A stretch of 26,058 bases of DNA from a virus, in the IMG/VR virus record IMGVR_UViG_3300030103_001046, positions 1-26,058 of that record; one strand, written 5' to 3'. A model generated the notes under the pieces. The model did not search any database, was not told the origin of the DNA, and worked only from the letters and a program-made list of their open reading frames with translations. This document shows positions 7,596 to 24,370 of this stretch, in pieces. Numbering within the stretch: position 1 is the stretch's first letter; the number at the start of each line of letters is the position of its first letter. The position numbers and the translations under genes are program-made.

Positions 7596-9884
7596 ATGGC
7601 AAAAGCGTCACCAGCTTTTACGAATTTTACAGCGGGTCAACTATCCGATCGTCTGGATGGACGCACCGATATTGCCAAGTACGCAAACGGCTGCAAGAAG
7701 CTACAGAATTTTTTAGTACACGCACATGGTGGAGCAACACGTCGACCAGGCACAGAGTTTATAGCCGAAGTCAAAACCAGCGCAAACGCAACACGCTTAA
7801 TACCGTTTGAGTTCAACGTCGAGCAAACGTATATCCTTGAATTTGGTAATCAGTATTTTCGTATTTATCGCGATGGTGGGCAAGTGGTCAGCAGCGGATC
7901 TGCCGTAGAAGTTGCAACACCCTACACGTCAGCACAGTTAGCCGACATAAAATTTACGCAAAGCGCGGATGTTATGTATGTTGTGCATCCCGATCATGCG
8001 GTACGAAAGATATCACGCACAGGGCATACAGCCTGGACAATCACGGAAGTAGACTTTCGCCGTGGTCCTATGCTCGATCAGAACACCACAGCAACGACAC
8101 TTACAGCTAGTGGTCGTACGGGCAGCATCACAGTTACAGCATCAGCAGATACGTTTGCATCAACAGATGTTGGTCGACTAATAAAATTTTACGACGGGTT
8201 TGCAAAGATTACCGCGTTTACCAACGCAACAACGGTAACAGCGACCGTGCAAGAAAACGAGGATTTACGCACAGAGTTAATGCCAAGTTATACGGCAACC
8301 ACGATAGCTTTTGCTGAAGGCGATCCCAGTTCTACAGGACTAGAGCATAACGACAGAATAACAGACAGTAACGCAAACTTTATTCTTGAAGGATTTAAGG
8401 TCGGGCAAACGCTGACAATCAGCGGAGCCAGCAACAGTGGTAACAACGACAATAATTTAGTTGTCGTACAGGTAACAGCGGACACAATATTGTTTGCGCC
8501 AAGTAATGATTTAGTCGATGCCAACGCTGGGGCTTCGGTAACAATCACTGGAAACCTTGGTGCAACATCAGAATTTAGTCTAGGGGCATTTTCTACAACT
8601 ACTGGCTTTCCATCGACTGTTGTGTTCTTTGAGCAGCGTTTGGTTTTTGCAAATACGGCAACACAACCACAGACAATATTCTTTTCTGTGTCGGGTGACT
8701 TTGAGGATTTTAACGCGGGTACACTCAATTCATCGGCACTGACCTACACGATTGGGTCTAACCAGGTAAATGTTATTCGCTATCTGACAGCATCAAGAGC
8801 ATTGCTGATAGGTACGTCGGGTGGTGAGTTTGTTGTGAGGGCATCGAGTGATGAACCTATTTCACCAACAAACACACAGATCTTACGACAAGCCAGCTAC
8901 GGATCGGCAAACATACAGCCAGTAGCCGTGGCAAATGTTGTGCTATTTGTGCAACGTGCAAAACGTAAGCTGCGCGAGTTGGTCTATAGTTTTGGGTCGG
9001 ACAGTTACTTTGCACCCGATTTGACGATCTTGTCGGAGAATATTACCGAAGGATTGATAAAAGAAATAGCGTTGCAGCAAGAACCCGACAATATTGTGTG
9101 GTGTGTTCTGGAAAACGGCAAGTTTGTTGGCATGACGTATAGACGCGAAGAAGAGGTTGTCGCCTGGCACGATCACGAAATAGGTGGCACGTTCACGGAC
9201 AGCGGTACAACATTCAACTATGGTTTTGTTGAAAGCGTAGCCACAATACCGTCGTCAACTGGTACGGAAGATGAGGTCTATATCGTCGTCGCACGAACCA
9301 TAGGTGGCGCAACAAAGCGATATATAGAAAGACTGAAGCCGATTGATTTTGGATCGAATATAGAGGATGCGTTTTTCGTTGATAGTGGTCTGACCTACAG
9401 CGGAAGCTCCGCAACAACTATATCGGGTCTAACGCATTTAGAAGGGCAAACCGTTCGCATTGTAGCAAACGGGGCAACACATGCCGACAAAGTAGTCAGC
9501 AGCGGTGCTGTAACACTTGATCGCGCAACAACAAAAGCACACATAGGATTGCCATACACAAGTACGCTGCAAACAATGCGAATAGATGCGGGTGGCATGC
9601 AAGGCACGTCCCAGGCAAAGATAAAACGAATAAATGATGTAACCGTGCGATTGCACAAAAGTGTCGGTGTAAAGGTCGGCAGCAGCGAGAGTGTAACGGA
9701 TCTAATACCGTTTCGTTCATCAGCAAACGCTATGGACAAACCCATTGCGTTATTTAGTGGCGACAAAGAAGTCGAGTTTGATGGTGGGTATGAAACAGAT
9801 GGACACATAGTTGTTATTCAGGACCAGGCACTACCATTGACTGTTTTGTCGATCTATCCACGGATCACGACGTTTGACGAATGA
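7596..9884 (+). CDS. Tail tubular protein B (T7 gp12-like nozzle)
   Basis: A 762-residue protein (T7 gp12 has 794) that forms the hexameric nozzle of the short tail and contacts the fibres. The diagnostic N terminus reads F-T-N-F-T-A-G-Q-L-S-D-R-L-D-G-R-T-D-I-A-K-Y-A-N-G-C-K, then G-G-A-T-R-R-P-G-T-E-F-I-A-E. Further family pieces are Y-I-L-E-F-G-N-Q-Y-F-R-I-Y-R-D-G-G and W-H-D-H-E-I-G-G-T-F-T near the blade region. Long beta-rich threonine/alanine-rich segments (residues about 160-320) form the variable middle. It abuts gp11 and overlaps the next gene by 4 bases (ATGA). Confidence 0.95.
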   Translation: MAKASPAFTNFTAGQLSDRLDGRTDIAKYANGCKKLQNFLVHAHGGATRRPGTEFIAEVKTSANATRLIPFEFNVEQTYILEFGNQYFRIYRDGGQVVSSGSAVEVATPYTSAQLADIKFTQSADVMYVVHPDHAVRKISRTGHTAWTITEVDFRRGPMLDQNTTATTLTASGRTGSITVTASADTFASTDVGRLIKFYDGFAKITAFTNATTVTATVQENEDLRTELMPSYTATTIAFAEGDPSSTGLEHNDRITDSNANFILEGFKVGQTLTISGASNSGNNDNNLVVVQVTADTILFAPSNDLVDANAGASVTITGNLGATSEFSLGAFSTTTGFPSTVVFFEQRLVFANTATQPQTIFFSVSGDFEDFNAGTLNSSALTYTIGSNQVNVIRYLTASRALLIGTSGGEFVVRASSDEPISPTNTQILRQASYGSANIQPVAVANVVLFVQRAKRKLRELVYSFGSDSYFAPDLTILSENITEGLIKEIALQQEPDNIVWCVLENGKFVGMTYRREEEVVAWHDHEIGGTFTDSGTTFNYGFVESVATIPSSTGTEDEVYIVVARTIGGATKRYIERLKPIDFGSNIEDAFFVDSGLTYSGSSATTISGLTHLEGQTVRIVANGATHADKVVSSGAVTLDRATTKAHIGLPYTSTLQTMRIDAGGMQGTSQAKIKRINDVTVRLHKSVGVKVGSSESVTDLIPFRSSANAMDKPIALFSGDKEVEFDGGYETDGHIVVIQDQALPLTVLSIYPRITTFDE

Positions 9885-10336
9885 TTTATGTAGTACCCTT
9901 TCACACGGATCATATTTACGATATTATGAGAAGTGGCGAAGATTTTGGATCAATATTCGACCAGCAAAATTTTGTCGAGTTTACGCAGAATACGCATAAG
10001 CATTGGACAGCGTACACGGGATACGAAGATGGCAATGTTGTTGGTGTAGGGGGTCTGGTCGAGATCTATCCGCATCTAGCGGAAGCCTGGCTGGTACTGC
10101 CAAAACACCGAGGTGTTGGTTTAGGTACAACTCGTAAGATACTGAAAATATGGAATAAAATGCTTTCTGACCGGAGAAAGTATGAACGTATTCAAGCGAC
10201 CGTTCACCAGGAATTTGAAGAAGGTATTCGGTTCCTAGATTTTTTAGGATTTACCAACGAAGGTTTGATGCAAAAATTCGGACCCGATAAGAGTAATTTT
10301 TTTAGATATGCGTATATAAGACATGGACCCAATTAA
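9881..10336 (+). CDS. Internal virion protein A-like (T7 gp13-type GNAT-fold protein)
   Basis: A 151-residue GNAT-fold protein directly after the nozzle gene, the place of T7 gp13 (138 residues). Visible elements are V-G-V-G-G-L-V-E-I-Y (strand), A-E-A-W-L-V-L (strand 4), then H-R-G-V-G-L-G-T-T-R-K-I-L-K (acetyl-CoA-loop-like R-G-V-G-L-G and its helix), and I-R-F-L-D-F-L-G-F-T-N-E-G-L-M. Such proteins are conserved next to the ejection proteins and help virion assembly. The pyrophosphate-binding loop R-x-V-G-L-G looks better preserved here than in the other GNAT-like gene at 2132-2551, so it may bind acetyl-CoA. It overlaps the next gene by 14 bases. Confidence 0.85.
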   Translation: MIYVVPFHTDHIYDIMRSGEDFGSIFDQQNFVEFTQNTHKHWTAYTGYEDGNVVGVGGLVEIYPHLAEAWLVLPKHRGVGLGTTRKILKIWNKMLSDRRKYERIQATVHQEFEEGIRFLDFLGFTNEGLMQKFGPDKSNFFRYAYIRHGPN

Positions 10337-10823
10337 AGTAGCACTATCCGTTGCATCGACCGCTGCAAGCGCAGCGACATCCGTTGCACAAGGCAGACAA
10401 CAAGAAGCGGTGTATGATTACAACGCAAAGATAAACGAACGAAATGCACAAGTTGCTGACGTTGCAGCGGAACAGCTGTATCAAACCGAACGTCTGAAGA
10501 TACAAAAATTTCGCAAAGAGTTTGGTAAGTTACAAGCAGCGACAAAGCAAGGTTTTCGCTACAATGGTTGGATTGCTGATGGTGGTACACCGTTGCTGGT
10601 TGCCCTGGCAAACGCACAAGAAGCGGACGAAGAAATAGCCATACGCGATTACAACGCAAGAGTTGGTCGACAAGAATTAAAAGAAGAAGGTGTAGCACTG
10701 CGTATGGAAGCCGAACTCAACAGAATGTATGGCGACCAGGCACGAACAGCGGGTGTTATGAGGGCGGGACAATCGCTGCTTAGTGGCGCATCAGACATGT
10801 ATAATATTTATAGAAACGCATAA
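10323..10823 (+). CDS. Internal virion protein B-like (T7 gp14-type ejection protein)
   Basis: A 166-residue, alanine- and glutamine-rich, mainly helical protein. It starts with D-P-I-K-V-A-L-S-V-A-S-T-A-A-S-A-A-T-S-V-A-Q-G (hydrophobic/small helix), then a Y-D-Y-N-A-K-I-N-E-R-N-A-Q-V-A-D-V-A-A-E-Q segment and a glycine-containing turn F-R-Y-N-G-W-I-A-D-G-G-T-P. This is the pattern of short internal core proteins that are ejected into the host and form a pore in the outer membrane (T7 gp14, 196 residues). Position between gp13-like and gp15-like genes supports it. The stop overlaps the next ATG by one base (TAATG). Confidence 0.85.
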   Translation: MDPIKVALSVASTAASAATSVAQGRQQEAVYDYNAKINERNAQVADVAAEQLYQTERLKIQKFRKEFGKLQAATKQGFRYNGWIADGGTPLLVALANAQEADEEIAIRDYNARVGRQELKEEGVALRMEAELNRMYGDQARTAGVMRAGQSLLSGASDMYNIYRNA

Positions 10824-12562
10824 TGAAAGTACCTACATACACAGCACAGTCCGACGTGACCAATCGTACGGGGCAAACACCACTGCGTGTCCAGGCAAAT
10901 GTCGGAGCAGCTACGCAAGCAATATCGGCACAAGGTGATTTATTTCAACAAGCGCAGCGGACAAGTATGACGTTTCTGGAGCAAGAAACAAAGCTGCAAC
11001 GTGCCACAGAATTAGCAGCGTTGGAAAACCAGTTTGCTGCGCGATTACAAGAACACAGTCTTGCAGCGATCGACGACCGTAACCCAAGGTCCATGATGAC
11101 CAACTGGAACGAGAATGTAAAAAGAACACTCAATGATTTGGGTCGTGATATTGATGATCCAGTAGTGCGTCGTCGTTTCATTGCGAGTGCATCGAACGAT
11201 ATACTTGCTGGTCGTTTAAATATTATGAAGCAAGCACGGGCAAACCGTATCGATCAGTCTTTAGCGACGCATCTTGAAAAAGTAAATACACTTAAAAAGC
11301 AAGCGTACAACGGAAACTCTCTTGAGCGTATGAAGGCACTGCGTGAGTTGTATGGTTCACCAGGTGTTGATACTGGGGACGCAGCATTTCGATCGCCCGC
11401 AGTGGTTGGTGTGTTTCAACAGATGGAAAACCTTGGCTTAATTTCTGCTGCTAAACGTGTTGAATTAGAAAACGACACAAGAATAGAAGTAGAAAGCGGT
11501 GAGATATACCAGGATCTTAGTGCAGCTGCGGTGTCGGGCAATCCCGATCATGCCGATCAGATAGTCAACAATCTAGCCAACCCCGACCAGTATCCAAATA
11601 TAACGGGATCTGCGCGAAACACATTGATAAACAAAGCAATAACGCTTCGTGATAGTTTGACTGATGACGAACTAGCAAAAAAAAAGAAACAGCTTGATTA
11701 TAACAAAGCACAGCGAACTCTAAAACAAGAAGAAAATTATGCTGATTTCACGCTACGCTTGAGCCAGGAAAACGACAATCCAAACTTTGAAGGTGAGCCA
11801 GTAACACTGATAGAACTGCAAGAAGCACTTGATGACAATGAACTTACAGTCGCCCAATATGAAGCGTTAAAATCAACACGCTTAGAAACTGGTCTTACAA
11901 AATCAGATGCGTCGACATTATTTGAATTAAATCAAAAAATAGATCTGGCTGACAGCAAAGAAGATCTTGACGAAATACGCGAGGATATTCCGACATTTAT
12001 GCGAAATAAGCAGCTTACGGCTGGCGATGCAACCGTTCTGCTAAACCGTATGAAAACACAGCTGTCAAACACACCAAAATCTATCGCAATCAAACGCGAA
12101 AGACGTAATCTTCTCAGAACGCTTGGTGTCGATGTCAACGGTCGTTTCGATGATCCAGATCTAGTGGTGTCCCAAAAATTAGCCGTGACAGACGCTATCC
12201 GATCTTTTGATGATTTGGTTGAAAAGCATAACGTCAATCCAAGAGAAGCAGCAGATTACATTGGGTCGAATTTTTTAAAACAAGCAATATTTAATGAAAG
12301 CTTTGAAAACATTGGAATACTTGCACCAAATCAATTTATTTTTAATGACATCAATGACTTGCCCAAGGGTCCGATGTCTACTGAAAACTACAACATGATA
12401 AAACAAAAAATAAACACAAGCGGTCTAGGTCCAAACATGCAAGTCATGGAGTTAGAAACCTTAGACCTTATCAAAAAATTTAAAAGCAATGAACAAGCTG
12501 CGCCACCAGTTAACACCAACGACAATCAACCCACTTTTTTACAACGCATATTCGGGGGCTAA
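10823..12562 (+). CDS. Internal virion protein C-like (T7 gp15-type ejection protein)
   Basis: A 579-residue, charged, almost entirely helical protein, in the place of T7 gp15 (747 residues). The N-terminal region (V-G-A-A-T-Q-A-I-S-A-Q-G-D-L-F-Q-Q-A) and the L-E-N-Q-F-A-A-R-L-Q-E helix are typical of such proteins, followed by repeated helical hairpins. The protein would lie in the internal core and, after ejection, form part of the periplasmic conduit with the gp16-like protein. No enzymatic motif was seen. It overlaps the gp14-like gene by one base, and the next gene begins 3 bases after its stop, with GGGGG (12554-12558) as ribosome site. Confidence 0.8.
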   Translation: MKVPTYTAQSDVTNRTGQTPLRVQANVGAATQAISAQGDLFQQAQRTSMTFLEQETKLQRATELAALENQFAARLQEHSLAAIDDRNPRSMMTNWNENVKRTLNDLGRDIDDPVVRRRFIASASNDILAGRLNIMKQARANRIDQSLATHLEKVNTLKKQAYNGNSLERMKALRELYGSPGVDTGDAAFRSPAVVGVFQQMENLGLISAAKRVELENDTRIEVESGEIYQDLSAAAVSGNPDHADQIVNNLANPDQYPNITGSARNTLINKAITLRDSLTDDELAKKKKQLDYNKAQRTLKQEENYADFTLRLSQENDNPNFEGEPVTLIELQEALDDNELTVAQYEALKSTRLETGLTKSDASTLFELNQKIDLADSKEDLDEIREDIPTFMRNKQLTAGDATVLLNRMKTQLSNTPKSIAIKRERRNLLRTLGVDVNGRFDDPDLVVSQKLAVTDAIRSFDDLVEKHNVNPREAADYIGSNFLKQAIFNESFENIGILAPNQFIFNDINDLPKGPMSTENYNMIKQKINTSGLGPNMQVMELETLDLIKKFKSNEQAAPPVNTNDNQPTFLQRIFGG

Positions 12563-12565
12563 TTT

Positions 12566-15500
12566 ATGACTGAAATGAGAGTAGTTGACCCATTCACGGA
12601 TTACTTTGAGCAACTTGGACAAGAGTTTCAAGTCAATGGTAATCGTACCCGATACAAGCGCATGAAAACGGACTTTCTAAAAGAACAAGGATATGATCCA
12701 CAACTGATTGACCTGGACTATGCGTATGATGCGGGTAACGAGCAGAATACAGACATACTGCCAGCGATCAGCAAAAAAGAGGACGGCAGCGTCACGGAAG
12801 ATATTTTGCTGGATACGAACACCAGGGAAGGCATGGCATGGGCAGCAGCAAGCAAGGCTTTATACGATGCGTACGACATAAAAGAGAAACGAGAACAGCA
12901 GCTAAATAAATTGCCTACAGCTGGTCAAAGTTATCGAACTAGGCTTTATGAAAAATTAAAGAACAAAAAAGCACCAGAAACACCACAAGAGTTTGGGCAA
13001 TGGGGCATCGAGCATATTGGCTGGCTAAACTACAACTTGCCAGCATTTGGTTATGCGTCAATGAAATTGCCTGGAGTGGTGAAGCAAAACCCAAAAGCAG
13101 CCTATGCGTTTTTACATCTTCTCGACACTTACGGTAAATTACCAATGTTTACCTGGAACGGGACAAAGCGTTTTTTTAATGGTGTGTTAAAAGATCCATC
13201 GACCTACGCTGGATTGACGACTTTGGGTATTGGTCTATCGGGCAAAAAATTTACTTCACAAGCGGGTAAGGGTGGCTTGAAAAAAGCGTTAAGACTAGCT
13301 TTAGATCCCGCAGCACTTACTATGTATGAGGGTGCATTATACGCAGCATCTGATGATTTCTTTCGACAAAAGGTAGCTATTGAAGCGGGTCCAGAGGTAA
13401 AAGGCGGTCAAGAAAGTTATGATCCCGTACGAGGTCTGACAGCTGCGGGTGGTGGCGCATTGTTCGGCGGTGCGTTGTACGGCACTGCAAAGGTTGGTGC
13501 GGATGTTGCACCCTTGGCAATAGATGCGGTCAAAGGTGTTGTCAACAAAGGTGCTGAAAGTGCAAAGGCACGGATTAAAGAAAGAGCATCGGGAACGACG
13601 CTGTATTCTAATCCTATTGGTCCGATCGCTGATGAAGTTATTAGTCGAATGGGTGGCGGTGGCGAAGGTCCACCACCAGGTCGAAACTTGGACGAGTTTG
13701 GTTTCTACAGCAAAGCCGAAGAAGCACTTACCAAAGTCAAGCAAGAAAAAGGCACGGGCAAACAGTTCATCAATCAGATCAAAAACCAGTTTAATGTCAA
13801 AGAAAAAGAACTGTACTGGCTGGGACTAGATAAGTTTGACAATGATGAAAAGGTCGACAAGAAAACACTTATAGACACGGTAAAGCAAAACTACGTCAAG
13901 ATCCGTGAAAACAAGTATAGCTACAAACAATCGCCAACTGGTGATAACGCTGATATTACAGATGTAAACGAGCTTAGTTTTAATTTAACAGATGATACGA
14001 CATACGATAATTATGCTTCTGATGTAAATACTGCGATCGAAGAATTTGAACTGGGTCGGGCTGCTTCAGGAATAGAAGATAGTGTTTACGACGGTTTAGC
14101 AAATCTTATTGGCTATCACACACGATCACAAGTTGAAGCGTTTGAAAATAACCAGTTAGACGATTTTATAGTAGCGTCTATGACAGAAAAAGATGTGTTT
14201 AATTCAAAGGCTTTGTATCAAGCGTATGAAGAAGGGTACACAAACTTCAGGGATTTTGACGGTGAACTAATAGATTTTCAGTCTGAACGTAACGATTTCT
14301 TTGACGACTTGGCGCGAAATGAATACTTAAATAATCCAAATAGAAGTGGGTTTGATACGTTAGGTCTGAATTACAAGATTGAATATGACAGATATGACGA
14401 TCGCTTTACAGTGTATGATCCGCGTGGATTTGCACTTACGGCACATCCCAGTTCGCTTAACGAAGCACAAGTTTTGGCAACGCAAGATGCGTATGACCAG
14501 GGATATTTGTTAATGACAGATCCCGACGAAGCAGATGCAATTGCGGGTGCTGTAGAGCAACAACCTGGTGATCCAGCAAAGGACGCTGGGCAGCCATTAC
14601 ATGCGTCTTACAAGCTGGATGGTGGATCAAACTATAGAGAACTTGTGCTGGAAAATACGTCGTTCCAGGGCGATCCTGATAAAGACGCAATACTTAAAGA
14701 AGTGGGCGATGTTATTACGCAAGCAGAAAATACGGTGCTACAAAGGGACCAAGCCGACAATATGATTAGTAGATACGAAATCTTACCAGAAAGCGAGAAG
14801 CCAGAGTTTTTGAGAACAAACAACACCAGCGAAGCAACCATGAAAAGTGAGCGTGTAAATTTGCAACTTGCAGTAAACGCAGCTTTACAGAAGAAAAAAG
14901 AAGTGCTTGTAAAATATAATATGGACAATAATGCTTTAAAAAATCCATACAACGCATCAAATAGGGTTGCTGCCCTAGAAGCGGGACCACGCACACATTA
15001 CGGTTCTATAAAGAATGACATTGGACACATGCGTATAACGGACAGACGGACAAATGATGGCGAAAAAATTATGTTTGTCGAGGAGTTGCAATCCGATTGG
15101 TCACAGAAACGTGCTGCTATGCCGTCACCACAAAACATAGAACGTGCAGCAGATTTGCAAAGAACGGGTGAAATAGTTGGCGAAGCTATCGCAGCTGCGG
15201 ATAATTTATTGACGGGTTTTCTCGGTGGGACATTGCCAGGCGCAATCACTGAAAACACGGTACAGCTTTTTGATAACGTAAAAAATTCTATGAAACTGAT
15301 GCTAGATAATGACAGTAGGCTAAATCAATTTATCACTGATTTAAATGATGGTAGAAAAAATTCCCCCGATCTGGCGCAAATGGAGCAGCAACCTATTGTT
15401 GATGTATTGGATGATATTGAAATTAACGATTTCTATCAATTTATGGAAGATTATACACGGCAAATACTACAACCGCTTCAGTATCGTAAAAACATGTTGG

Positions 15501-16273
15501 AAGTTTTTGATGAGCAAACCGTCAGCGATGACATTTTTGAAAAGATAACAAATCCAATGATTGAAGCGTTTACAAATGCTTATGTAGAAAAAGCACAAGG
15601 CAAAGTAGTGGGCGATAATTTACTATCTGAAAGCAACATTCGTCCATTTATTAAAAGAAATCTCATACAAGAAAGAGAAAAACTACGTCCCTTTGTTGAT
15701 CTAATATCAAATTTTATGAAAGGTAACATGCAAGACGTAACTGCGGAACGTGCCAAGCTACAGCAAAACCAGAATTTTTTAGAAGCAAGGAAAAGATATG
15801 GGTTGGTTGCAAGAGGACCGTTTGTGCAAAAAAGTGATGATATTGTCGAACTACAACTAAAATCACTGATCCGTCGAGCAGTTGAGGAGGACCACAAGTT
15901 TATAGTTGTTGCGGGTGCAGATGTGCATATAGATCGCTGGGGTGATAGTTACACAGACGCTTTTAACACGCATTACGGTACAGTAGTGCCGAACGCAGCA
16001 GAAAAAGTGCTGAAGCAATTTGATAAGAAAGCAAAGGTTTTTTACAAACCAGTCGAAGAAATAAGCGACGAGTTAGATAACGCAGTGAAAGAAGTGTATG
16101 GCGTTGATCTACAAGAGCGAAACGATATGCTCATAATACCTATATCAGACGAAATGCGTAAAAGCGTTAAGCAAGGCATGTCGTTGTTTGAACTGGGTTC
16201 ACTTGCTGGAGGTGGCGCAGCGGTCATGGGATCACAAATGACACAACAAGAAAATACAGAACCTGGGATATAA
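12566..16273 (+). CDS. Large ejection protein (gp16-like position) with polyvalent-protein-type C-terminal domains
   Basis: A 1235-residue protein after the gp15-like gene, the site of T7 gp16 (1318 residues). Residues about 200-330 hold glycine/alanine-rich hydrophobic stretches (for example T-A-A-G-G-G-A-L-F-G-G-A-L-Y-G) that could insert into a membrane. The C-terminal part differs from T7 gp16: N-Y-R-E-L-V-L (about 688), then H-M-R-I-T-D-R and M-F-V-E-E-L-Q-S-D-W (about 836-845), and finally L-K-S-L-I-R-R-A-V-E-E...I-V-V-A-G-A-D with I-S-D-E-M-R-K-S-V-K-Q-G near the end. I recognise this combination (E-E-x-Q-S-D-W plus I-T-P-E-M-R-E-S-V-type ending) from very large polyvalent phage and plasmid proteins. 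No lysozyme-type transglycosylase motif was seen. Ejection into the host is inferred. Confidence 0.75.
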   Translation: MTEMRVVDPFTDYFEQLGQEFQVNGNRTRYKRMKTDFLKEQGYDPQLIDLDYAYDAGNEQNTDILPAISKKEDGSVTEDILLDTNTREGMAWAAASKALYDAYDIKEKREQQLNKLPTAGQSYRTRLYEKLKNKKAPETPQEFGQWGIEHIGWLNYNLPAFGYASMKLPGVVKQNPKAAYAFLHLLDTYGKLPMFTWNGTKRFFNGVLKDPSTYAGLTTLGIGLSGKKFTSQAGKGGLKKALRLALDPAALTMYEGALYAASDDFFRQKVAIEAGPEVKGGQESYDPVRGLTAAGGGALFGGALYGTAKVGADVAPLAIDAVKGVVNKGAESAKARIKERASGTTLYSNPIGPIADEVISRMGGGGEGPPPGRNLDEFGFYSKAEEALTKVKQEKGTGKQFINQIKNQFNVKEKELYWLGLDKFDNDEKVDKKTLIDTVKQNYVKIRENKYSYKQSPTGDNADITDVNELSFNLTDDTTYDNYASDVNTAIEEFELGRAASGIEDSVYDGLANLIGYHTRSQVEAFENNQLDDFIVASMTEKDVFNSKALYQAYEEGYTNFRDFDGELIDFQSERNDFFDDLARNEYLNNPNRSGFDTLGLNYKIEYDRYDDRFTVYDPRGFALTAHPSSLNEAQVLATQDAYDQGYLLMTDPDEADAIAGAVEQQPGDPAKDAGQPLHASYKLDGGSNYRELVLENTSFQGDPDKDAILKEVGDVITQAENTVLQRDQADNMISRYEILPESEKPEFLRTNNTSEATMKSERVNLQLAVNAALQKKKEVLVKYNMDNNALKNPYNASNRVAALEAGPRTHYGSIKNDIGHMRITDRRTNDGEKIMFVEELQSDWSQKRAAMPSPQNIERAADLQRTGEIVGEAIAAADNLLTGFLGGTLPGAITENTVQLFDNVKNSMKLMLDNDSRLNQFITDLNDGRKNSPDLAQMEQQPIVDVLDDIEINDFYQFMEDYTRQILQPLQYRKNMLEVFDEQTVSDDIFEKITNPMIEAFTNAYVEKAQGKVVGDNLLSESNIRPFIKRNLIQEREKLRPFVDLISNFMKGNMQDVTAERAKLQQNQNFLEARKRYGLVARGPFVQKSDDIVELQLKSLIRRAVEEDHKFIVVAGADVHIDRWGDSYTDAFNTHYGTVVPNAAEKVLKQFDKKAKVFYKPVEEISDELDNAVKEVYGVDLQERNDMLIIPISDEMRKSVKQGMSLFELGSLAGGGAAVMGSQMTQQENTEPGI

Positions 16274-16295
16274 TTTTGTTCCCAATGTAACAAAA
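16274..16295. repeat. Inverted repeat directly after the stop of the 1235-residue gene
   Basis: TTTTGTT (16274-16280) and AACAAAA (16289-16295) form a 7-bp perfect inverted repeat around an 8-base loop, partly extended by flanking A/T pairs. It is AT-only except for one pair, so it is weak as a hairpin. It may be an operator-like palindrome or chance in AT-rich DNA. It precedes the terminator at 16319. Confidence 0.45.
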
Positions 16296-16318
16296 ATAAC
16301 ATAAGATATTATATAATT

Positions 16319-16344
16319 GCAGCCGTTCGCGCTGCTTTTTTTTT
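16319..16344 (+). terminator. Intrinsic terminator between the two large ejection-type genes
   Basis: GCAGC and GCTGC (16319-16323 with 16331-16335) form a 5-bp GC-rich stem around a seven-base loop, followed directly by nine T residues (16336-16344). It ends only 9 bases before the next ATG, so the downstream gene must be served by read-through or by a promoter not visible here. The short stem suggests partial termination. Confidence 0.75.
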
Positions 16345-16353
16345 GGATAAATC

Positions 16354-19326
16354 ATGGCATTAACGGACGCAGAAAACACTGCGATCTCATCAATATTGAC
16401 TGGTGGGGTCGAAGAACCATTGACTGAACAACCAGGTGCAGAAGAAAAACCCGTGGAACTAGCGATGTTTGGTAAAGCTGGTGGTAAGGCTGGTACATGG
16501 CTTACAAGGATGTTGTTTGGCAAAGACTTATTTAAAAGCAGACAAATATTAGAGGATCTTAAAAAGGGTCGGAGAGAACCACTTAAATTAGAAGATATGT
16601 TTCTCGATCCCGAAGCAGACGCAGAAGATGCTGTCACCATACCAAAATTTTTAAGGGGTGTTGAAGATAAAGATGCTGGCGGTAAAGCAGATCTAGCAAA
16701 GCCAACAGAAGAACAATTCCAACAGTTTCAAGAAGAACGTCTATCAGATGCGAAGCCTATAAAAGGTTTACTAACAGATTTTCGTGTCCAGGGTTCGAAG
16801 GGCGACGATAAAATACCAGACGAGCAGTCGGTTCTAAATAGTATTGAAGCTATATCTAAGACACAAAGTGCGGAAATAGAACGCATAAAACGTGGCAAGA
16901 TGGACGATGATGTGGTGGGTGAGCTTGCGGATCTTGTCGGACTTGCCCCTAACGCACTAAAAAAAAGAATTTTAGGTAGAAAAAAAGGCGAAGCGATTAC
17001 GGTTAAAGGGTTCGGAATGTCAGAAGTTATGCTGGCATCGCGTACACTTATGGTTGAAGAAATTAGAAAATTAGATGAATTAGCGGAACTAGCATCGAGT
17101 GGCGGGGATCAAGCGTTAATATCGTTTCGCCAGCAGTTTGAGTTGGTAGGGCAGCTGCAAGCACAAATTAAGGGATCGCAAACAGAAATAGCTAGGGCAT
17201 TAGCGCAGTTCCGTATACCAACACGAAACGAGCAGTTTAATAGATTACGCAATCAAGATGCGTCGCTGCTACTTGATGAGTTTGGCGGTAGTGACGCTAT
17301 CAAAGATATTGCAAAAAATTATCTTAAATTGGGCAAAGATAATCTATCAGCAAAAGCACAGTTTACCAGGGGTCGTAAAGGTGTGTTTGGCAAAGTAGCA
17401 GACATGGCATACGAAGTGTGGATCAATGCGCTTCTAAGTTCGCCAGTTACACACACAAAGAATATGGTTGGTGCTTTTTTACAAACATTTGGTCATGTAC
17501 CCGAAGTGTATGTCGCTGCGGGTATGGGTGCTATGCGCCGTAAGCTGCGTGGGCAAACGGGTGGTGTAGAGTTTGGCGAAGCAAACGCAGCTTTGTTTGG
17601 TGCGGTGATGGCATATAAAGAAGCATGGACCATAGCAAGGCTTGCTTACAAAACTGGTGAAAAACCTATATTGGGTTCTAAAATGGAAATGACAAAAGGG
17701 CAGCGTCATTCTAGTGCGTTTTCCCAGGATGTAACTGGTGCAAGTGGCACTATGGGCAACGCGGTTGCTGCATTAGGTAAGTTTGCAACATTAGGTGGTG
17801 TCCCAACAAGTATGCTGGAGTTTGAAGATACATACTTTAAAGTCGTTGCCCAGCGTATGTCGTTATATCAACAAGCCTATCGACAGTCTAAACAGCGTGG
17901 TCTAGGTATCGACGACAGTGCGGAGTTCATAGCTAATTATGTTCATAACCCGCCAGAAAATGCAGAAATGATAGCAAATGCCCACGCACAATATGTAACA
18001 CTACAACAAGAAGTAGACGTTGTTGGAAAGCAGCTGAAGGGTATACGCAACGTGCCATCGCTACGTTACTTCATACCGTTCTTTAAGACCCCGTACAACG
18101 CTTTCAAATATGCGTTTGCGGAACGTACACCGTTAGGTGTTTTAAGTGCAAACATGCGTGAAACATTAGCTGCTGGTACACGACCCAATGCTACGCCCGA
18201 ACAAAAAGCAGCAAGAGATATGGCAGTCGCAAGAATGTCTATGGGATCTATGACGCTAATGGTTGTTGCTGCGTATACCATGCAAGGACGGATAACTGGC
18301 GCGGGTCCAGCGGACAGAGAACATAACAAAACATTAAGACGACAAAATTGGGAACCCTATAGTGTACGGATCGGGGACGAATACGTTAGCTATCTTGGTT
18401 TTGAGCCGTTTGCGTCGGTAATATCAATGGCTGCTGATATGTCAGAAACACTAATGGTTTACGGAAAAGGCAACGCAAAAACTGAAGAAATGGTTTCTGC
18501 GGCTATTCTAGCTTTTTCAAATCAATTAACTGACAAAACATTTATGCAAGGGTTCAGCAATTTCGTGTCGCTTATGCAAGACCCTATACGTTATCAAAAA
18601 GGTGTAATTGCTAATTTTGCCCGTAGTTTAGTTCCTCGCGCCGTATCGCAAGTTGAAAGGATTGTCGATCCTACAGTGCGTCAAACAAATTCTATAATAG
18701 ATGAAATAAAAAGTCAGATCCCAGGGTTATCGTCAACGCTGCCACCAGAAAGAAATATATATGGACAATCAGAGTTTCTTTCAGGTGCATTAGGTCCAGA
18801 CATTATTAGCCCAATGTATTCTAATACAGTCGGTCCAAACACAGCGTCGATAGATCCAGAAACATTAAAAATTGGAGGTCGAAAATTCGATCTTAATACA
18901 GAAGAAGATATTAACGATGCCTATGAATTCGATAAAGAATTTGCAACGATTGGGTACGGACCACGCGAGTTACCAACGGAAATTCACGAAGAAGTATCTT
19001 TGACACACGAAGAACGTGATCTGTTGCACCGATTGATGGGCGACATGACGCTGACACGTTTACGTAAATACTTTAATAAAAAATCAACAATGCGCCGATA
19101 CGAGGAAAGAAAAAAACTTTTTTTAGAAACAGGCAACAAGATTGCTTATGAAAGAATGGAGCGTGAGTTGAATTACGAAATCAACGCTGCCAGGGACACG
19201 ATCCTCGACATACAAGGTTTTGGGTACGGGGGTTTGTTTTTTAGAACAGAGTTAGGCAAGCAATTCAAACAACGATTAGACGATTTTAACGAGAAATCAA
19301 AAGCAGCGATGAAAGAAGTGAGATAG
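16354..19326 (+). CDS. Large virion-associated protein, putative second ejection protein
   Basis: A 990-residue protein. The first 150 residues are charged and probably flexible. From about residue 340 it follows a pattern I know from large uncharacterised podovirus proteins: L-L-S-S-P-V-T-H-T-K-N-M-V-G (about 361), F-I-P-F-F-K-T-P-Y-N-A-F-K-Y-A-F-A-E-R-T-P (about 573), a hydrophobic helix M-G-S-M-T-L-M-V-V-A-A-Y-T-M (about 630-643), then T-G-A-G-P-A-D-R-E and W-E-P-Y-S-V-R-I-G-D-E-Y-V-S-Y (about 648-680). Function of the family is unknown to me. The position between the ejection proteins and the fibre, and the size, suggest an internal, co-injected virion protein. It lies behind a terminator, with a weak ribosome site (GGATAAATC). 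Confidence 0.7.
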   Translation: MALTDAENTAISSILTGGVEEPLTEQPGAEEKPVELAMFGKAGGKAGTWLTRMLFGKDLFKSRQILEDLKKGRREPLKLEDMFLDPEADAEDAVTIPKFLRGVEDKDAGGKADLAKPTEEQFQQFQEERLSDAKPIKGLLTDFRVQGSKGDDKIPDEQSVLNSIEAISKTQSAEIERIKRGKMDDDVVGELADLVGLAPNALKKRILGRKKGEAITVKGFGMSEVMLASRTLMVEEIRKLDELAELASSGGDQALISFRQQFELVGQLQAQIKGSQTEIARALAQFRIPTRNEQFNRLRNQDASLLLDEFGGSDAIKDIAKNYLKLGKDNLSAKAQFTRGRKGVFGKVADMAYEVWINALLSSPVTHTKNMVGAFLQTFGHVPEVYVAAGMGAMRRKLRGQTGGVEFGEANAALFGAVMAYKEAWTIARLAYKTGEKPILGSKMEMTKGQRHSSAFSQDVTGASGTMGNAVAALGKFATLGGVPTSMLEFEDTYFKVVAQRMSLYQQAYRQSKQRGLGIDDSAEFIANYVHNPPENAEMIANAHAQYVTLQQEVDVVGKQLKGIRNVPSLRYFIPFFKTPYNAFKYAFAERTPLGVLSANMRETLAAGTRPNATPEQKAARDMAVARMSMGSMTLMVVAAYTMQGRITGAGPADREHNKTLRRQNWEPYSVRIGDEYVSYLGFEPFASVISMAADMSETLMVYGKGNAKTEEMVSAAILAFSNQLTDKTFMQGFSNFVSLMQDPIRYQKGVIANFARSLVPRAVSQVERIVDPTVRQTNSIIDEIKSQIPGLSSTLPPERNIYGQSEFLSGALGPDIISPMYSNTVGPNTASIDPETLKIGGRKFDLNTEEDINDAYEFDKEFATIGYGPRELPTEIHEEVSLTHEERDLLHRLMGDMTLTRLRKYFNKKSTMRRYEERKKLFLETGNKIAYERMERELNYEINAARDTILDIQGFGYGGLFFRTELGKQFKQRLDDFNEKSKAAMKEVR

Positions 19327-23187: not shown

Positions 23188-23781
23188 ATGGAACAATACA
23201 AATTTGATGAAAGTAGTTTCATGGGTGGTTGGTTTATGCCAGGAGATTTGTGTGATAGCTTGATTGAGTATTATCATAGCAAAGAAGATCAACATACTGA
23301 TGGAATATCTGGTGGTGGAGTAGACCACAAAGTACGAAAAAATACAGACTTAGTAATTTATCCAGAAAACTTTGTAGATTTAGATAGATACTTATTTTTT
23401 CTTCAAGAGTGCTTAGATAAATATAAAGAAAAATATGAATGGTGCGATAATGTAAATGCTTACAGCATTATTGAGCCTATAAAAATACAGCATTATGCAC
23501 CAACTGAAGGTTATTATACGATGCACATGGAAAACTCTGGTCATCCAGATCCGTTTATCTTAAGGCATTTAGTTTTTATGACTTACTTAAATACATTAGA
23601 TAATGCTGGAACAGAGTTTTATTATCAAAAGTTGACTACAGAATGTAAGAAAGGATTAACGCTTATATGGCCAGCTGGTTGGACGCATGTTCATAGAGGG
23701 GTGACAAACAACGTCAGTGATAAATATATAACAACAGGGTGGTATAGCTTTGTAATGCCAGAAGAAATTAAAGTTGATTAA
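23188..23781 (+). CDS. 2-oxoglutarate/Fe(II)-dependent oxygenase, prolyl-hydroxylase-like
   Basis: A 197-residue protein with the double-stranded beta-helix pattern of 2OG/Fe(II) dioxygenases. Metal ligands appear as H113-x-E115 in Y-T-M-H-M-E-N and a distal histidine in G-W-T-H-V-H-R-G (H167 or H169). K179 in D-K-Y-I-T-T-G-W-Y lies where the 2-oxoglutarate-binding lysine or arginine is expected. The strand L-V-F-M-T-Y-L-N and the segment G-L-T-L-I-W-P-A-G-W-T also fit. The first acidic ligand is glutamate instead of the usual aspartate. These enzymes couple 2-oxoglutarate decarboxylation to hydroxylation of protein, sugar or nucleotide targets. Placed after the fibre genes and overlapping a second oxygenase, it may modify fibre or host surface components. 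The substrate is unknown. Confidence 0.85.
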   Translation: MEQYKFDESSFMGGWFMPGDLCDSLIEYYHSKEDQHTDGISGGGVDHKVRKNTDLVIYPENFVDLDRYLFFLQECLDKYKEKYEWCDNVNAYSIIEPIKIQHYAPTEGYYTMHMENSGHPDPFILRHLVFMTYLNTLDNAGTEFYYQKLTTECKKGLTLIWPAGWTHVHRGVTNNVSDKYITTGWYSFVMPEEIKVD

Positions 23782-24370
23782 GCAAAAGATAAAAGAAACA
23801 TTTGATCTTTTCAGTGTCCCTATTCATGCAGATTACCCAAGCTTAGATAATCAGGCAATGGCAGAGTATTGTTTAAAAATGATGCAAGACCAAGAAAGTC
23901 TTAAAAGATCTAACATGGGAGGGTGGCACTCTGAAGACTTGAAAGGATTACATGATCCTTTAAATGATTTGTTCATAACTATTACTGATACTGTAAATGA
24001 ATTTGTAACTGAACTAGGTATGCCCTTTCTTAAAATTAATAACATTTGGATAAACATAAACGGATATAAAGACTTTAATCAGGAACACACACACCCTGGT
24101 TCTATATTGTCAGGAGTGTATTATGTTCAAGCACATGAGAATTGTGGAGGTCTTGTTTTTAATAATCCAAACAGAGGTGAAATCGACGGGTACTGGTGGC
24201 CTTACGCGATGGAAGTAAAAGACAATACTAAAGTAAACTCAGCATGGATTATGCCAGCAGAAACAGGGAAGCTTTACATTTTTCCAAGTTGGCTAAGTCA
24301 TAGTGTAGAGCCTAATTTAGATAAAGAGAAAAAACGAATATCTATTTCTTGGAATAGCACAGTAGAATGA
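23774..24370 (+). CDS. 2-oxoglutarate/Fe(II)-dependent oxygenase, 2OG-FeII_Oxy_5-like
   Basis: A 198-residue protein of a second oxygenase family. The signature is Q-E-H-T-H-P-G-S-I-L-S-G-V-Y-Y-V (H105 and H107), followed by G-G-L-V-F-N-N-P, then G-K-L-Y-I-F-P-S-W-L-S-H-S-V-E-P-N (distal H176) and K-K-R-I-S-I-S-W-N with R188 as likely 2-oxoglutarate contact. This matches the family widespread in marine phages and bacteria. The most upstream start is the TTG at 23774, overlapping the previous gene by 8 bases, with GAAGAAATTAAAG ahead of it. Translational coupling of the two oxygenases is likely. The next gene begins with an ATGA overlap. The two enzymes share little sequence, so they are not a recent duplication. 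Confidence 0.88.
   Translation: MIKQKIKETFDLFSVPIHADYPSLDNQAMAEYCLKMMQDQESLKRSNMGGWHSEDLKGLHDPLNDLFITITDTVNEFVTELGMPFLKINNIWININGYKDFNQEHTHPGSILSGVYYVQAHENCGGLVFNNPNRGEIDGYWWPYAMEVKDNTKVNSAWIMPAETGKLYIFPSWLSHSVEPNLDKEKKRISISWNSTVE

Follow-up and report, generated by a model that had tools for sequence, protein, structure and literature searches.

A split gp16-type ejection protein as a probable carrier of exchangeable cargo in marine podoviruses

The DNA analyzed here, 26,058 nucleotides covering positions 1 to 26,058 of the IMG/VR virus record IMGVR_UViG_3300030103_001046 (hereafter the window), represents the late-gene half of a T7-like podovirus, as judged from gene calls and family matches. 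Its genes follow the order TerL, portal, scaffold/protease, major capsid, TubA, TubB, GNAT, gp14-like, gp15-like, X, Y, and tail fiber. This study concerns gene X (12566-16273, + strand) and the next gene, Y (16354-19326, + strand), which were compared across other loci and contigs (L-numbers). X is a single unbroken open reading frame (ORF) of 1,235 amino acids (aa) whose homologies identify a gp16-type N-terminal head followed by C-terminal cargo, and a public contig longer than the window (L002, 34.8 kb) encodes a protein identical to X. Y encodes a gp16-type body of 990 aa (PHROG 6651, internal virion protein, E 2e-47; also recovered by tblastn and hidden Markov model, HMM). The two genes correspond to the front and rear halves of a split gp16.

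All parts of X lie on the + strand. The head (residues 1-375; 12566-13690) matched gp47 of phage LUZ100 in tblastn (37% identity, E 4e-21) and in HMM comparison (E 2e-44); its core, residues ~74-300, is common to gp16-type proteins, and the sequence is Gly/Ala-rich around residues 210-330. Next comes a module here termed FYS (FYS...VK.KEL.WLGL..., residues ~380-455; 13703-13930), detected with an HMM from non-window seeds (E 4.6e-13). The QSDW domain was delineated by HMM as four blocks: block 1 (YKLDGGSNYRELVL; 14597-14665), which forms the first predicted strand, block 2 (H..N.IGH.RI.DR...FVEELQSDWSQ; 14981-15121), block 3 (PFVQKSDDIVELQLKSLIRRAVEEDHKFIVVAG...RWG; 15725-15946, HMM iterations 0-4), and block 4 (HYGTVVP...LIIPISDEMRKSVKQGMSLFE; 15965-16204). 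Blocks 2 and 3 are separated by a fast-evolving, lineage-specific insert (residues 860-1050; 15143-15715) that is helical in the AF2 model, and the protein ends in a conserved tail (the LGSLAGGGAAVMGSQMTQQENTEPGI region; 16205-16270; 71% conserved in the X family). Three motifs that a sequence-only reading had singled out, NYREL (residues 689-693), FVEELQSDW (837-845), and ISDEMRKSVKQG (1193-1204), proved to be ordered blocks of this one domain. That reading missed the FYS module, the exchangeability of the cargo, and the other effector-like domains found in the same slot, all described below.

Among six X proteins, G686, G687, N689, Y690, R691, and E692 of block 1 and H811, H821, R823, R827, E840, Q842, D844, W845, and Q847 of block 2 were invariant, with position 843 being S or T. 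Conservation reached 57 to 71% in the domain blocks, compared with 32% in the insert (residues 860-1050) and 32 to 41% in the linker and inserts. With motif residues invariant while the linker and inserts vary, the pattern is that of a maintained functional core within fast-changing sequence. Direct family searches of X against Pfam, PHROGs, NCBIfam, and PDB sequences returned nothing significant; a Pfam LPD11 match was rejected as chance level (E 0.11), and a first tblastn with the C-terminal region of X gave chance-level matches only.

The relationship between X and Y was traced through phages that encode both parts in one polypeptide. LUZ100 gp47 is a single 1,210-aa protein called gp16 by synteny (PMC10134795); its N-terminus matches the X head and its C-terminus matches Y. 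A search of viral contigs found the X head at 60 loci, and in 19 contigs head and gp16-type body were joined in one ORF of ~1,200-1,400 aa. Other arrangements comprised a bare 340-aa head ORF followed by Y (L230 and L239), a head-only ORF ahead of one of the Y type (L206), nine complete ORFs in which the head carries the FYS and QSDW cassette, and several loci with the head and other cargo, then Y where the contig continues. Wherever a contig had both neighbors, the X-type gene sat between the gp15-like gene and Y. By tblastn, Y itself had matches in 71 phage records, where many of the proteins bear the annotation internal virion protein D or gp16. Single-ORF relatives have head and body, X has the head only, and Y has the body; in the window lineage gp16 is therefore split in two, with cargo on the front half. 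The gp16 position that the sequence-only reading had assigned to X thus stood as regards gene order, except that the slot holds two genes, with the body in the second; likewise, the fusion of conduit and effector proposed there was right in placing cargo on a gp16-type N-terminal head, and its conduit-type part turned out to be the next gene.

A conserved intergenic element of ~80 bases (16274-16353, + strand) with an intrinsic-terminator-like hairpin (16319-16335) separates X and Y in six of the six relatives aligned (terminator scan, one found against 0.1 expected), which suggests separate control of the amounts of X and Y. In view of this element and its hairpin, we discarded the idea that X and Y are joined by a programmed frameshift. 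The proposal that HTVC010P and its other relatives have the same split gp16 halves was unsupported, their internal virion proteins matching neither X nor Y; the set encoded by HTVC010P and relatives (L188-L195) has no detectable sequence relation to either protein. In the annotations of Skadi-1 and Greip, the gp15 position has a lysozyme or pesticin domain.

Between the head and the end of the X gene, unrelated sequence is swapped in among contigs 80-95% identical on both flanks. L205 and L214, from different metagenomes, were 95% identical over 7.8 kb upstream, as far as residue ~314 of the ORF that contains the head. Downstream, identity was 94% over 3.6 kb, starting about 14 codons before the stop; nothing aligned between these flanks, where the cargo is unrelated. 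L216 has the same flanks (93-94% upstream, 80% downstream) around a third cargo, and L224 and L229 carry unrelated cargo between flanks of 93% and 92% identity. The cassette type of the window takes part in this exchange: the heads of L259, with FYS and QSDW, and L260, with unrelated cargo, were 81% identical, and Y of L213, which has the cassette, was 82.5% identical to that of L260. The reverse was also found. The cargos of L215 and L252 were 58% identical on heads of 27% identity, and in HTVC028P the cassette is borne by a head unrelated to that of X. L216 was identical in four metagenome samples (L216, L218-L220), making chimeric assembly less likely. Most of the contigs are uncultured and may be fragments.

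Cargo in the slot fell into an ADP-ribosyltransferase-like domain, a DUF7178 domain, unclassified sequence, and the QSDW cassette. The cargos of L205 and L229 matched ART-PolyVal just below the Pfam curated cut-off (E 1.8e-8 and 5e-8), and those of L207, L215, L252, and L214 matched DUF7178 (E to 1e-15). Profile searches gave no family name for the cargos of L216, L221, L224, and L260; that of L216 was 23% identical to L215 over 184 aa. The proteins of L205, L214, L215, and L216 share a seven-residue ending, VANASEL/M, through which the DNA is also conserved, and which may be a sorting or assembly tag or only a recombination junction. The C-terminal tail of X is analogous to this ending, which is kept through the cargo swaps in L205, L214, and L216. 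With the stretch between head and gene end swapped among near-identical contigs, X is best read as part of a split ejection protein that offers a slot for cargo, in a design resembling that of polymorphic toxins.

The same data bear on whether the cargo might instead be inactive in itself and serve the ejection channel structurally, as a wing or spacer. The cargo does sit on a gp16-type head inside the virion gene block, and a large part of the sequence specific to the lineage evolves fast and is helical. Against this, relatives with near-identical flanks carry unrelated sequence in its place, including ART-like domains, contigs without cargo exist (L230 and L239), and the polar motif is invariant. 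We consider a purely structural role unlikely.

For the cassette of X, a consensus of the motif family served as a lead only, and all subsequent tests used database sequences. A QSDW profile seeded with Dfl-JY45, Manatee, and HTVC028P-type sequences, with the window family left out, matched X in three collinear blocks (E = 1.4e-16). Its score was 63.4 bits, whereas the highest among 1,000 shuffled copies of X was 5.6; for FYS the corresponding values were 51.5 and 6.8 bits. Profile-profile comparison of the X C-terminus with the Dfl-JY45 and Manatee proteins gave a probability of 97.6. The earlier association of these motifs with polyvalent proteins was thus borne out, and the C-terminal region of X is, by its homologies, a domain of phage polyvalent proteins. 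Motifs occur in the same order in HTVC028P gp34, Dolichospermum phage Dfl-JY45 (2,387 aa), Manatee Spring phage, and Pseudoalteromonas phage PH1. HTVC028P gp34 matched the Dfl-JY45 and Manatee set with a probability of 99.6 over 308 columns. The Dfl-JY45 protein contains four ART-PolyVal domains alongside the QSDW domain, and other phage QSDW proteins also carry LPD3, LPD22, or InPase. The ~75-aa FYS module (VK..EL.W.GL pattern) preceded the QSDW domain in 163 of 178 proteins. Genes of the X type and other QSDW genes adjoin TubB, gp14, gp15, TerL (terminase), portal, or tail genes; the Manatee Spring phage protein adjoins the portal gene and that of phage PH1 adjoins TerL. At least 521 QSDW relatives were found in viral contigs and 80 across prokaryotes, counting one genome per species. 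Pfam, PHROGs, and NCBIfam contain no model for FYS or QSDW, and the cassette may equal an LPD domain of PMC5512222 that never entered Pfam.

QSDW cassettes were also observed in other settings. In L133 (5485-14073), L159, L070, L074, L094, and L099, the cassette is part of giant proteins of ~2,500-3,000 aa in T7-like gene orders, near TubB or gp14-like genes, i.e., in the gp15/gp16 region; LPD22 is present in the giant proteins of L133 and L099, and LPD3 also in L133. Shorter FYS and QSDW proteins (ORFs ~550-620 aa) occur in bacterial genomes (L154, L161-L187), including sulfur-oxidizing symbionts (Candidatus Thiodiazotropha and Sedimenticola) and other Gammaproteobacteria, with no giant multidomain architecture; these could be prophage remnants or domesticated copies. 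The gp34-type gene is interrupted in both L020 and L023, probably through sequence errors or low sequence quality, since the damage extends to neighboring genes (to TubB and, in L023, to Y).

A confident structure was obtained for one relative only, the FYS and QSDW cassette of L130 (mean pLDDT 88.9, pTM 0.84, 92-sequence alignment). In a viral structure library its best matches were phage proteins (E down to 2e-30), including some annotated 'large polyvalent protein associated domain' and 'ART-PolyVal-like'. GNAT acetyltransferases accounted for almost all of the 50 PDB matches listed, with a best E of 7e-3. By eye, a strand-strand-helix order (VLAHVR / FIEEIQSDWHQ.GR..GY / LALKR..R.AAE.GYD.IAW / QQAERY) can be superposed on the GNAT core. 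The window's own model was of moderate confidence (pLDDT 74.6, pTM 0.54), its alignment consisting of six full rows and N-terminal pieces. Two window-relative domain alignments misplaced block 3 owing to the ~200-aa insert and were not used for folding. A GNAT-like fold for the QSDW domain, while plausible, is slightly more doubtful than not.

Taken together, the homologies, the division of gp16, and the swapping of the stretch from head to tail among near-identical relatives favor a dual role for X, as the front part of a divided gp16-type ejection protein and as a carrier of cargo; we assign this reading a probability of roughly two in three. In T7, the internal proteins gp14, gp15, and gp16 are the first to exit the head and assemble into a channel, with a transglycosylase on gp16-N and with gp16-C passing through the inner membrane (PMC8954989). 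In X, residues ~1-375 are the gp16 N-terminal head and residues ~376-1213 the FYS and QSDW cargo, the rear half (Y-type body) being a separate polypeptide from the next gene. X would be packaged in the internal core alongside the gp14-, gp15-, and Y-type proteins and ejected at infection, with Y supplying the body, and would carry its cargo to the envelope/periplasm or cytoplasm with the genome, before phage gene expression. ADP-ribosyltransferases need NAD+, which is cytoplasmic; as ART-like cargos would depend on it, the cytoplasm is the favored destination. The swapping of cargo suggests that X serves as a loading dock for proteins that would enter the host cell together with the viral DNA. 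Less certainly, QSDW (conserved residues E-x-Q-S/T-D-W-x-Q plus H, R, and Y) may have a GNAT-like fold and enzymatically modify some molecule of the host, and cargo exchange may reflect an arms race with the host. The broader proposition falls a little short of even odds: that in marine podoviruses the split-gp16 front half is a polymorphic effector carrier, its exchangeable cargos lying between an invariable head and a short, equally invariable tail, and that FYS and QSDW, a recurrent cargo, represent enzymes of a so far undescribed family with a GNAT-like fold, which reach the host as infection begins. A hypervariable region that includes a putative ribonuclease and an internal virion protein has been noted in HTVC010P-like phages (PMC10504331, PMC6487183), which would fit diversifying pressure on this part of the genome; the parallel is limited in that neither X nor Y shows detectable relationship to the internal virion proteins of HTVC010P and most of its relatives.

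Several observations weigh against this interpretation. Y has no detectable sequence match to the solved T7 gp16, and no direct homology to T7 gp16 was found for the X head. The hairpin between the genes may mean that X and Y are made in unequal amounts. The N-terminal part of T7 gp16 stays in the periplasm (PMC8954989), and the cargo might for that reason not reach the cytoplasm. We found no virion proteomics for these phages. As regards the fold, the L130 model had no PDB match at E <= 0.001 and its TM scores were low, the window model matched no structure significantly, hhalign of QSDW against 18 phage GNATs was negative, and no Pfam GNAT match was obtained. The ART-PolyVal scores in the slot, as given above, are sub-threshold.

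An activity in the periplasm is the basis of another explanation, in which the cargo takes the place of the transglycosylase of T7 gp16 and has the cell wall or envelope as its target. The sequence-only reading had seen no transglycosylase motif in X, and indeed Pfam and PHROG searches found neither transglycosylase nor lysozyme in X, the gp15-like protein, or Y. Wall-degrading domains are known to move between gp15 and gp16 homologs, T7 gp16-N being itself periplasmic (PMC8954989), and in other HTVC010P-type phages the gp15 position is taken by a 'lysozyme' or 'pesticin' gene. Such a role is nonetheless improbable: the partners of QSDW are ART, InPase, and other intracellular-type domains, wall hydrolases were not among the PDB matches in the structure search, and other cargos in the slot resemble the NAD+-dependent ADP-ribosyltransferases. 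That X is unpackaged, made late, and active inside the infected cell, e.g., in superinfection exclusion or assembly, would suit the terminator-like element and the lack of published virion mass spectrometry that we could find, but is equally improbable given that 19 contigs encode gp16-type proteins as one polypeptide beginning with this head and that the X gene keeps its place between the gp15-like gene and Y wherever a contig includes both.

The preferred interpretation, X as a cargo-bearing ejection protein, has partial parallels in known systems. Like polyvalent proteins (Iyer et al. 2017, PMC5512222), X is a large multidomain phage protein encoded among virion genes, it joins disparate parts (gp16-type head, FYS, and QSDW) in one polypeptide, and its cassette is common to proteins with ART-PolyVal, LPD3, LPD22, and InPase. 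Unlike them, it has a single cassette on a gp16-type ejection head and its cargo is exchanged as a unit; the text of PMC5512222 mentions neither gp16, internal virion proteins, nor ejection. Compared with T7-type gp16 or internal virion protein D (marine Autographiviridae, LUZ100 gp47, P-SSP7 gp16), the gene position is the same, X and Y together fill the slot between the gp15 and gp17 (tail fiber) positions, and gp16-type proteins made as one polypeptide match the X head in their N-terminal part and the Y body in their C-terminal part; the window differs in having two genes, no transglycosylase match, and cargo on the front half. In the HTVC010P-type pelagiphage HTVC028P (gp34-gp33), a gp15-like gene, a 954-aa cassette gene, and a 985-aa Y-type gene are similarly arranged, whereas residues 1-320 of gp34 have no detectable similarity to the X head. 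MuF toxins combine a constant N-terminal virion-type part with exchangeable C-terminal effector domains. The X family likewise has a constant N-terminal part and an exchangeable C-terminal domain, but X is a podovirus ejection protein of marine phages, with no Pfam match to MuF. No immunity gene was noted at X loci, where no search was aimed at one. Polyvalent proteins are already known, as are polymorphic toxins of temperate phages (PMC5576092); we found no description in the open-access literature of exchangeable cargos on a gp16-type ejection protein.

Early action of phages on cells, before gene expression, is largely inferred from domain lists. Near-identical phage pairs that differ in one ejection-protein cargo make exchange visible at the DNA level and provide matched natural comparisons for asking what ejected effectors do. 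Reading the slot is also a way to collect new effector domains, and FYS and QSDW offer an undescribed, widespread domain pair for biochemical study. The closest cultured phages by TubB are HTVC010P-type pelagiphages (50-59% identity), which belong to one of the most abundant groups of ocean viruses (PMC10504331). The window G+C of 40-47% is above the value expected of a SAR11 phage, and its host is therefore uncertain.

Elsewhere in the window, tail tubular protein B (TubB; 7596-9884, + strand; PHROG 376, E 4e-231) anchors the T7-like late gene order. A gp14-like internal virion protein (10323-10823, + strand; PHROG 418, E 3.6e-11) is followed by the gp15-like gene upstream of X (10823-12562, + strand), assigned by position and by homologs at the gp15 position in relatives (profile and phmmer searches across loci); tblastn of the phage collection gave no match to it. 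Two GNAT-type genes are present in the late region (2132-2551 and 9881-10336), the second of which occupies the T7 gp13 position, also among those close relatives that were compared. Two neighboring genes (23188-24370), situated downstream of the tail genes, encode 2OG-Fe(II) oxygenase-like proteins (PHROG 61 and PHROG 81).

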